Assembly (NCBI GenBank): GCA_024681705.1
Contig: JAILAI010000045.1
Coordinates: 1 to 34,702, forward strand
Source of the DNA: Prevotella sp.
GTDB lineage: Bacteria > Bacteroidota > Bacteroidia > Bacteroidales > Bacteroidaceae
Length of the DNA: 34,702 nucleotides
Direction: 5' to 3'
A program made the translations under genes and the position numbers. Each line of letters opens with the position of its first letter. Position 1 is the first letter of the stretch. Below the pieces are notes generated by a model. That model did not search any database and was not told the origin of the DNA. It was given only the letters and a program-made list of their open reading frames with translations. This document shows positions 247-32,500 of this stretch, one piece after another.

Positions 247-356
247 CATAAAAATTTCGCGTCAATCAGCACGTTGATATAGCTAGAGGGCCTAAATTTG
301 AACTTACCGAAATAAGATTATTTAACAAAAACTTTCCCCTTGGAGACCCCTGAATG

Positions 357-388
357 TTTGTTTTTTTGACGAAAATTTTGTACCTTTG
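357..388 (+). promoter_or_regulatory. Bacteroidetes-type promoter (TTTG-N20-TAccTTTG)
   Basis: TTTG at 357-360, 20-bp spacer, TACCTTTG at 381-388. Confidence 0.6.
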
Positions 389-452
389 CATATGTGCTGA
401 GATAGCAAACAAAAGGGGGAATTTGGCAGGAATGATAAGGGAATAATAGTAA

Positions 453-4315: not shown

Positions 4316-5199
4316 AATTTCTTGATTCCTGTTGTCTTTAGCATGATGGCTTTCAGTTTGTCGCCGGACGACTTGATTTGCCTTATGCGCAATTGGTCGC
4401 TATAATCGGGCAGAAGCACCTTTCCCGTGAGTCTGTATACGTCGAGCTGAATGTTCAGCACGTGCATATAGTATTCGGAAAAGCCCTTGCGGGTGATGAG
4501 AATGGCCTGTTCGAGCACCTCGATGTGGGCTTCGAGCAACGACATCAGCGAGGGTCCATCGGCCTTGTGCGTGATGCCCTGCGGGTTGTCGTAGTAGCAA
4601 TAGAATCCCTTCTGCGTGGTGGCAATGGTGTGAGGCGACTTCAGTATCTCCTTCAGCGCCCAGATGTCCTCGAAGGCTCTGCCCTTGGGGAATGTATGGT
4701 TGTTGAGCAATTCGCGACGGAACACCTTGTTGCAAGCGTAGCTATGCCTATAGGCTTTACCTCCGCACCAATAGTCGGCCGATTCCCCGTAGATGCAATC
4801 TTGCAGGCCTATCGCACTTTGGTCCTCGGTGAAATAGTGGATCAGGGTATCGTATTCCAGAATGTCGTATTCAGGATGCTCGGCCAGCATCTTCAGCAGG
4901 GGAGCGAGAGTGTTGGGTGCCAGTACGTCGTCCGAATCAACGAAGGTGATATAGCTTCCAGTGGCCTTCTCGATACCAGCGTTGCGCGCATCGCCAAGTC
5001 CTCCGTTTTCTTTGTGAATGACGCTTATCTGCTTGTTTCCAGAAGACAGTTGGTCGCAGATGTTTCCGCTATTGTCGGTCGAGCCATCGTCGACCAAAAT
5101 GAGCTCCATGTCTGCAATGCCCTGCGCGAGCACACTCTCTACACACCTCTCCAGAGTCTGCTCAACACAATATATGGGAATGACTACACTAAGCCTCAT
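4279..5199 (-). CDS. Glycosyltransferase family 2
   Basis: MRLSVVIPIYCVEQTLERCVESVLAQ...LILVDDGSTDNSG...FVDSDD. Confidence 0.93.
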   Translation of the reverse strand: MRLSVVIPIYCVEQTLERCVESVLAQGIADMELILVDDGSTDNSGNICDQLSSGNKQISVIHKENGGLGDARNAGIEKATGSYITFVDSDDVLAPNTLAPLLKMLAEHPEYDILEYDTLIHYFTEDQSAIGLQDCIYGESADYWCGGKAYRHSYACNKVFRRELLNNHTFPKGRAFEDIWALKEILKSPHTIATTQKGFYCYYDNPQGITHKADGPSLMSLLEAHIEVLEQAILITRKGFSEYYMHVLNIQLDVYRLTGKVLLPDYSDQLRIRQIKSSGDKLKAIMLKTTGIKKLCKIHKIFKFSH

Positions 5200-30248: not shown

Positions 30249-30971
30249 TTATTGGTCGACCGTTTCGTTACCGTTCTCCGTGTAGCCGCGCAGCAGGTTG
30301 ACGGCTCTTTTGATGTGGTATTTCCTGCCATCGGCACCTCGGGCTTCCACATTCACGTAGTACACGCCCTGCTTCGCATCGTGGCCGTTGAACGTACCGT
30401 CCCATCCATCGTTGGGGTCGGTCCATTCGAACATCTTCTGTCCCCATCGGCTGAAGATGGTGGCCTTGAATTCCACCAGGCTCTGCCATCCGGATTTGGC
30501 TTTATAGATGTCGTTGATGCCGTCGCCGTTGGGCGAGAAGGCATTGGGCATTTCGAGCTTGCTCTCGCTCACCGTCACGCGGATGGGCTGCATGTCGCTC
30601 CAGTATTCTTCGGTGAAGCTGACGGTGTCTGTACCCTGCACGAAAGTAGCATAGAGCACGATGGCATGACTTCCAGCTTTTGTGAAGGTATATTCCGTAT
30701 CTTGCTCATAGCGATTGAGATACGGGCTCTCTTCTCCTTCAAGGGTGAAGCGCCATTCGTAGGTGGCGTTCCATCCCGCATCGTTGCTGGGATTGGCCAC
30801 GAAGCGTCCCACGATGGGTGCCGATCCTGAATAGGACGTGCTCTGTTCCTCTTCGCCCTCGGTGTTGGTGAAGTAGGCCGTAGGGTCGATGCTTGGCATC
30901 TCGTCCTGCGCCCATGCCGATAGTGCTGATGCCATCATAATGGCTGCGATATATGCTCGGATTCTTCTCAT
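30249..30971 (-). CDS. Short CHU_C (gliding-motility-associated / T9SS type B sorting) protein
   Basis: Signal peptide [97 protein letters not shown]. The 31037 start in the track overlaps a -7 box (31035-31042), so 30971 is preferred. Confidence 0.85.
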
Positions 30972-31214: not shown

Positions 31215-31296
31215 ATGGGGGGCTATGGGATTTGATGGTGGCTATGGGGTTTTGATGGGGGGGCTATGGGATTTGATGGGAGATGATGGGGGCTGT
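31214..31296. repeat. G-rich ~10-bp-period array
   Basis: ATGG at 31215, 31225, 31235, 31244, 31255, 31266, 31276 and 31286. Confidence 0.85.
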
Positions 31297-31322
31297 GAAG
31301 GATAGCGGTTGTTTCACGATGT

Positions 31323-31377
31323 CCTATGATGCCCTATAACCCCCTATTTAATCCTATAATCCCCTATCTAACCCTAG
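31323..31377. repeat. C-rich 10-bp-period array
   Basis: CTAT at 31324, 31334, 31344, 31354 and 31364, then CTAG at 31374: exact 10-bp register. Confidence 0.88.
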
Positions 31378-31493
31378 GAGGCCCCGCCGCTCGGTGCTCC
31401 CCTTCTTCGGAAGGGTTGGGGGAGGTTCCCATTTCCGCCTGCCGCCTTGGAGTTGGTGATGGTGTTCTGTACCAATTTGTAGAATACTGCCAT
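31374..31493 (-). pseudogene. HU-family DNA-binding protein N-terminal remnant
   Basis: Minus-strand ATG at 31493 gives MAVFYKLVQNTITNSKAAGGNGNLPQPFRRRGAPSGGAS*. The first ~19 residues resemble Bacteroidetes HU-like proteins (MAVFYKLVQN...), then similarity is lost. Confidence 0.65.
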
Positions 31494-31650
31494 TGTGTTT
31501 TTCCTTTCAAAGATTTTAACGGTTAACGAATTCTGTTCTGAAGGAGTTTCCGCGTTGCGCTGATCAGGCCTGTTTTATCATCGCTGAGCATCGTGTCGTG
31601 CCGTCCCCGGGCCCTTGGTTTCCGCATTCTCACGAGCTTCCACGTTTCTT

Positions 31651-31758
31651 CTCCTTTCAAGTGCAAAGTTACAACATAATTCCCTTAAATTCCAAATTTT
31701 TAGGGGGTCGAAAACGGCTAATAATTGTTAAGGATATTGAACGAATGTATTTGTTACA
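31651..31758 (-). repeat. 108-bp inverted repeat, left arm (contains a minus-strand promoter)
   Basis: Pairs with 31921-32028; minus-strand TAACTTTG at 31664-31671 and TTTG at 31693-31696. Confidence 0.85.
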
Positions 31759-31920
31759 ATGTTACATTTTGTCTTTCCCTGAATATGGTTGACTCCTTTT
31801 AGGCCTTGTTTTTTAACATTTGCCTACCCGTACGGATTTGGTTGACTGCCTCGCCTGAGTACAGTTGACTACTTTCGCTGGAGACATTGTGCCCGACCCC
31901 TAATGTCACAAAGTCATATA

Positions 31921-32028
31921 TGTCACAAATACATTCGTTTTGTATCCTTAACAATTATTAGCCGTTTTCGACCCGTTGAAAATTTGGAATATGGTCATGA
32001 ATTGTTGTACCTTTGCAAGTGAAAGGAG
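31921..32028 (+). repeat. 108-bp inverted repeat, right arm (contains a plus-strand promoter)
   Basis: Reverse complement closely matches 31651-31758, including a perfect 32-bp block (31943-31974 vs 31705-31736). TTTG 31983-31986, N21, TACCTTTG 32008-32015. Confidence 0.88.
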
Positions 32029-32152
32029 AGGAAAATATAAAGGCACAAGAAAGACGGAAACAAAGGGCAAACTCAACATCTCTCTCACTAGTTGCTAACT
32101 CGCATCTACATCATCAAAAATTAGTTATCAATCCATTAAAGTCAAAAAAGAA

Positions 32153-32500
32153 ATGAAACGCTTGTCATTGATTTTATCCCTACTACTGCTGGTATTCGTA
32201 GCCAGCGCCCAGACGTACAATGTTCGCATGAAGAGTGGTGCAGTTGTCAAGTTCAACTCTTCGGATATAGAATACGTAGATTTTTCTGCCAACGGCGAAG
32301 CACCGATAGCCGTCGACCTTGACCTTCCCTCCGGCCGGCTATGGGCAAACATGAACGTGGGCGCGAGCAGTCCCGAGGGCTACGGGTTTTTGTGTGCGGC
32401 CTGTGCGTTAGAGACTCTAGATTTTTCTAGAGATTCTAGATTTTCTAGAGGTTCTAGATTTTCTAGAGATTCTAGATTTCCCCGAGCCTTTATATCCTAG
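32153..32500 (+). pseudogene. Truncated FISUMP-like secreted protein with tripeptide-repeat tail
   Basis: Signal peptide MKRLSLILSLLLLVFVASAQ, then AVDLDLPSGRLWANMNVGASSPEGYG (FISUMP-like start), then abrupt change to FLCAACALETLDFSRDSRFSRGSRFSRDSRFPR. Confidence 0.65.
32417..32476. repeat. 9-bp-period CTAGA array
   Basis: CTAGA at 32417, 32427, 32436, 32445, 32454, 32463 and 32472. Confidence 0.92.

Follow-up and report, generated by a model that had tools for sequence, protein, structure and literature searches.

An inverted repeat in a Prevotella genome is probably a divergent pair of copied promoter cassettes

RESULTS

An inverted repeat with a putative promoter in each arm

The window, that is, the whole stretch of 34,702 nucleotides analysed here, contains a long inverted repeat whose arms each carry a putative outward-facing promoter. 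We conclude that this repeat probably pairs, in divergent orientation, two members of a dispersed, species-limited promoter family, which is best read as a copied cassette. Among the origins proposed in a preliminary description of this DNA, the mobile promoter cassette fits best: 18 strong copies were found in the same genome, in intergenic positions before different genes.

The two arms (31651–31758 and 31921–32028) were aligned in inverted orientation without gaps and are identical at 87 of 108 positions. Repeat finding divided the match into 70 nt at 90% and 32 nt at 88%, and a gapped alignment extended the homology out to 31611 and 32068. The perfect blocks of 32 and 14 bp previously described in the arms were recovered, the 32-bp block occurring exactly twice in the window and never in shuffled sequences. 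This block, perfect in both arms, reads TATCCTTAACAATTATTAGCCGTTTTCGACCC towards the promoter; it lies at 31705–31736 on the reverse strand in the left arm and at 31943–31974 on the forward strand in the right arm. Read outward, both arms show TTTG-N21-TAnnTTTG-CA, so that the −33/−7 pair with a 21-bp spacer attributed to each of them was confirmed. This arrangement fits the consensus of the Bacteroidetes primary sigma factor (PMC7366714). Using the sequence and an alignment of 19 copies, the core promoters were placed at 31662–31697 (left, reverse strand, ATTTGG...TGTAACTTTGCA) and 31982–32017 (right, forward strand, ATTTGG...TGTACCTTTGCA). Judged from the consensus match, on which the promoter assignment rests, each arm is most likely a working promoter. 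The differences between the arms are concentrated in the −33/−7 spacer and the upstream block is invariant. The full 401-nt stretch around the inverted repeat gave a folding z of −16. Searches for RNA families in the window matched a tRNA-Phe alone.

The arms belong to a dispersed family restricted to one species

In the genome of origin (3.36 Mb, 299 contigs, 89% complete), a search with the arm sequence gave matches on many contigs. The genome was then searched with a family model, R1, for which 19 sites were aligned and 16 of them used in building. The left arm (31645–31758, reverse strand), which faces a CHU_C gene, scored 94.5 bits (E = 9e-27). The right arm (31921–32034, forward strand), a second and more divergent member facing a BspA-like gene, was found with E = 2.7e-24. 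The 18 strong copies had E values of at most 3.5e-16 and were followed by a gap, which excludes the earlier possibility that the block is found only here. The next match was the promoter of an intact HU-HIG gene on contig C85 (E = 1.4e-12), after which came a single HU-HIG promoter from another species (G013, E = 7e-9); below this, mostly generic core promoters appeared. The left arm is 91–98% identical to six copies (contigs C236, C134, C7, C9, C118 and C45) and the right arm 82–86% identical to any other copy. The arms are therefore two members placed back to back, and no fresh duplication is involved. An inverted duplication of one arm, which had also been proposed, was rejected, since, for each arm, copies on other contigs are at least as similar as the partner arm is.

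Pairwise identity among 11 copies was 0.96 in the conserved ~25-bp block, which sits 11–35 bp before the −33 element, and 1.00 in the −33 hexamer, versus 0.62 in the −33/−7 spacer. This difference partly supports the idea that a site for a regulator or a structural site is conserved upstream of −33. The 25-bp core of the block was found in 11 copies in the genome at up to two mismatches and again in 11 at up to three, with none in the reversed control. At up to three mismatches it was absent from the 299 other genomes of the genus, and the family is restricted to one species among the 300 genomes checked. The exact block had no match in GTDB genome contigs, a set from which the source organism is possibly excluded. 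A 500-bp cassette matched nothing in either the phage or the plasmid collection, and a phage or plasmid origin was rejected on this ground. In copies with different downstream sequence, homology ends just past the predicted start, at GAAAGGAGA.

A second dispersed promoter-leader family, with the leader GTGCTGAGATAGCAAA...AAGGGGGAA, was also observed before different genes of this genome (window 317–394; L037, ~4323–4430; L047, ~4600–4690; L129; L132; L133).

Leaders, HU-HIG remnants and downstream genes

Ten copies, the left arm and nine others, have about 170 nt of leader in common. Where the contig is long enough, these copies continue into an HU-HIG start (MAVFYKL...), which is interrupted at differing codons. 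In the window, this start lies at 31374–31493 on the reverse strand and is broken after about 19 codons, 16 of 19 being identical to the intact HU-HIG of C85 in the same genome; the truncated HU-like ORF described on the left is thus real. On the right, a short signal-peptide ORF (32153–32500, forward strand) is cut by TCTAGA-type tandem repeats. Its description as FISUMP-like was left unconfirmed, as there was no Pfam match even at E = 10 and no NCBIfam match.

Both short ORFs are broken where simple repeats occur (TCTAGA-type 18-mers, CCCTATAA-type and CTCCCCCAACCCTTCCGAAGAAGGGGAG; 32409–32479 and 31218–31402), and in several other copies similar stretches come after the HU remnant. The number of HU-HIG genes varies widely between species of the genus, from 2 to 30 matches per genome (30 in G003, 19 in G007, 13 in G006).

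Downstream of the left promoter lies a gene for a T9SS type B sorting (CHU_C) protein (30249–30971, reverse strand; PF13585 and TIGR04131 above cut-off). Downstream of the right promoter lies a gene for a BspA-type LRR protein, which runs off the contig (32597–34702, forward strand; PF13306, E = 1.6e-75). Both genes begin 0.6–0.7 kb away, past the broken ORFs and simple repeats, and for this reason transcripts may fail to reach them. No empty counterpart of the site was found in relatives, whose nearest CHU_C orthologues are only about 65% identical and stand in other neighbourhoods.

Among the 11 strong copies having no contig end before the next gene, this gene is in sense in 10, the exception being on C29. 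The genes concerned encode a umuC-like polymerase, a DHDPS-like protein, DUF5686, NAD synthase, an AXE1 esterase, a lipoprotein-like ORF, chorismate synthase, Memo/AMMECR1, CHU_C and BspA-LRR proteins. The corresponding one-sided binomial probability, 0.006, serves only as a guide because the copies are related. Three weaker copies are also in sense, before HU-HIG on C85, a CotH/lamin-tail gene on C58 and a UvrD-like helicase gene on C283. A near-identical promoter is hence found at several sites before non-homologous genes, as is characteristic of putative mobile promoters.

The segment between the arms is an IS3-family end

The spacer is a truncated end of an IS3-family element (31770–31889), whose terminus TGTCTTTCCCTGAATATGGTTGAC abuts the left arm. 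Over 115 bp it shares 99% identity with one end of an element on C118. This intact relative, of 1626 bp, carries an IS3 transposase (NF033516, 214 bits versus a cut-off of 160) and its termini agree at 18 of 24 positions; through it, the spacer can be assigned to the IS3 family. Only about 120 bp of the element remain in the window, without transposase, and the truncated inner end adjoins the upstream portion of the right arm. A 3-bp CAC duplication at the IS3 element is weak, the flanks otherwise failing to rejoin. On C118 too, the same IS lies directly upstream of a family promoter, via its other end. Because the IS3 terminus lies within the arms and points outward at the left arm, the arms are outside the element. 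The suggestion that the repeat may fall inside a known IS or MITE family accordingly holds for the middle and fails for the arms.

Module exchange among copies

Modules have been exchanged among copies. The copies on C7 and C175 are 97–98% identical upstream versus 65–67% in the block and spacer. The reverse holds between the left arm and C7, with 55–65% upstream and 95–100% from the block to the leader. Similarly, C224 and the left arm are 47–54% identical upstream and 95–96% from the −7 element on. The simplest reading of this mixing would be recombination or gene conversion between copies. Because 10 of the 18 copies have a contig end within 700 bp, some flanks and module joins are possibly assembly artefacts, and the joins near contig ends need long reads.

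An upstream palindromic element in most other copies

Most other copies carry a palindromic element of about 250 bp upstream of the promoter; neither window arm has it. Its plan is an AT palindrome (TTATTATAATATATAATATATATATTATATATTATAATAA) between self-complementary arrays of ~8-bp repeats. At up to three mismatches, the pattern ACTCCTATAGGTTATTATAATATA, which adjoins the palindrome, matched 13 sites in the genome, all just upstream of a family promoter and two of them (C58, C85) inverted; it was absent from 29 relatives. Arm matching within one copy exceeds the average across copies (22.6 versus 14.2), and the own arm was the best or tied-best partner in 7 of 13 copies. The repeat unit varies among copies (TGTCACA, TGTAACA, TGTTGCA, CTGTTCAA, GGGACGGT). 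Palindromes built on this plan are present at least in G003, G011 and G016, and a looser look showed them upstream of HU-HIG genes in G006, G007 and G013.

The elements observed in other species of the genus measure ~250–300 bp, with an AT palindrome between long self-complementary arrays of 7–9-bp repeats and a unit that changes from copy to copy (ATTACAT, GGTTACA, ATTACAA, GGGAAAGC). They were seen at L198:1340–1640, L202 and L204 (G016), L200 (G011), L201 (G003) and L128:1–120 (G013), and one of them gave a folding z of −11.7. The window itself contains, at 2027–2116, a tandem array of GGACAGAA in 11 copies, again with a period of 8. The literature search yielded no paper describing palindromes of this kind in Prevotella.

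Sequences like the IS3 terminus (TNAGGGAAAGACA), or longer relatives of IS ends, adjoin palindromic arms in several copies; they stand just upstream of the palindrome at L042, L044, L035 and L047, and were also seen at L045 and L131. This suggests either that palindromes are insertion targets or that an IS was ancestrally located beside the cassette.

A tentative and rather doubtful extension is that the cassette represents one species' version of a genus-wide, undescribed class of elements. These would have an AT palindrome (TTATTATAATATAT..ATATATTATAATAA) between arrays of ~7–9-bp repeats whose sequence is copy-specific but complementary to the opposite arm, and would lie upstream of strong promoters, often those of HU-HIG genes. 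Self-matching, fast-changing arms suggest a cruciform or hairpin copied by template switching, which may act in supercoiling-dependent promoter control or be the unit that moves the promoter.

DISCUSSION

Alternative explanations of the repeat

An ordinary regulon, in which one regulator or an RNA polymerase contact would select the block before unrelated genes without copying, could account for a constant block and hexamers with a variable spacer, for in-sense promoters before many genes and for the loosely similar promoter of the HU gene in G013. We hold this to be unlikely, because many copies have 170 nt of leader and 100–300 bp of upstream sequence in common at 90–99%, HU start codons before unrelated genes included, and selection on a binding site could not produce such sharing. 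Moreover, a tandem TTAAC version of the block showed no enrichment across 120 genomes (4 matches versus 2 in the reversed control) and was discarded as a genus-wide promoter element. The motif had appeared 4 times versus 0.2 expected in a small promoter set, a figure biased by the choice of the set by similarity.

The symmetry and length of the repeat, as well as the IS3 end inside it, would also agree with a MITE-like element (31645–32034), moved by an IS3-type transposase, in which the arms are terminal inverted repeats with outward promoters; the BrickBuilt MITE of Porphyromonas gingivalis does carry promoters in both ends. However, the two-armed form occurs in no other copy, the others having a single promoter, and the IS3 terminus, inside the arms, points outward at the left arm. 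The arms differ by 19%, yet the left arm closely matches single copies elsewhere. Weak homology runs past both outer ends into the leader, so that there are no sharp element ends, and the upstream palindromes have copy-specific ends. No target duplication of the cassette was identified by eye, and the conserved terminal inverted repeats of a known IS together with a target duplication, which mark a MITE, are not found here. Such an origin therefore seems quite improbable.

Even less credence can be given to a phase-variable switch in which a recombinase inverts 31759–31920 between the arms, in spite of the long inverted repeat and of the frequency of invertible promoters in Bacteroidales (PMC8748976). 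Known switches have the promoter between the repeats, in an invertible segment with a recombinase nearby. Here, the promoters lie within the repeats, the middle segment is an IS end and no recombinase gene was seen alongside among the ORFs of 26–34.7 kb. Inversion would only turn the IS stump and leave both promoters outward, and the switch was rejected on this anatomy. Thus, of the earlier view of the repeat as a recombination substrate, exchange between copies stands, as seen in the module swaps, whereas on/off inversion is unlikely.

A probable copied promoter cassette

Under the preferred reading, the cassette would consist of a primary-sigma promoter (−33 TTTG / −7 TAnnTTTG) and the conserved ~25-bp upstream block. 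Copying would have taken place inside the genome and probably began with the 5′ region of an HU-HIG gene; recombination between copies would then have partly reassorted the cassettes, which now stand in sense upstream of unrelated genes. At the window site, the pair flanking the IS3-end stump would drive the T9SS-sorted gene leftward and the BspA-like LRR gene rightward. We infer that the constant block upstream of −33 may be a contact for RNA polymerase or for a regulator.

Should the copies be active, a single promoter together with its upstream element would have come to stand before no fewer than 10 unrelated genes of one lineage, including those for an error-prone polymerase, NAD synthase, chorismate synthase, an esterase, an adhesin-like protein and T9SS proteins. 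Expression would then have been rewired without a regulator gene. The palindromes offer a natural series in which the hairpin arms are wholly changed with pairing kept, so that it can be tested directly whether DNA structure plays a part in bacterial promoters.

Comparison with known systems

Promoter stretches of the kind called putative mobile promoters ('promoter propagation in prokaryotes') reportedly recur, nearly identical, in intergenic regions of one genome, ahead of genes that are unrelated, and have no coding sequence of their own. Like them, the cassette is near-identical, intergenic, placed before unrelated genes and devoid of its own coding sequence. Two features set it apart: most copies have a long palindromic element upstream, and ten carry a broken HU leader. 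Putative mobile promoters are also mentioned in the report on BrickBuilt (PMC4596501).

The inverted repeats near promoters of surface-protein genes recall the invertible promoters of Bacteroidales (PMC8748976); unlike in these, the promoter is inside the repeats, there is no recombinase and inversion would be silent. The recurrence of IS3-type ends at the edge of palindromic arms in several copies resembles IS elements that target REP palindromes (PMC1525189), the likeness being one of resemblance only.

BrickBuilt has 19 copies in P. gingivalis, always intergenic, with promoters shown in lacZ fusions, and possesses 12-nt conserved ends and a 23-nt repeat in its middle (PMC4596501). Compared by description, the two systems have in common the bacterial order, intergenic copies, tandem short repeats and inverted-repeat ends. 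They differ in that a conserved AT palindrome here forms the middle, and the ends consist of ~8-bp repeats, which vary between copies and match within a copy. In its behaviour, the cassette resembles both putative mobile promoters and BrickBuilt, with which it agrees in copy number and placement.
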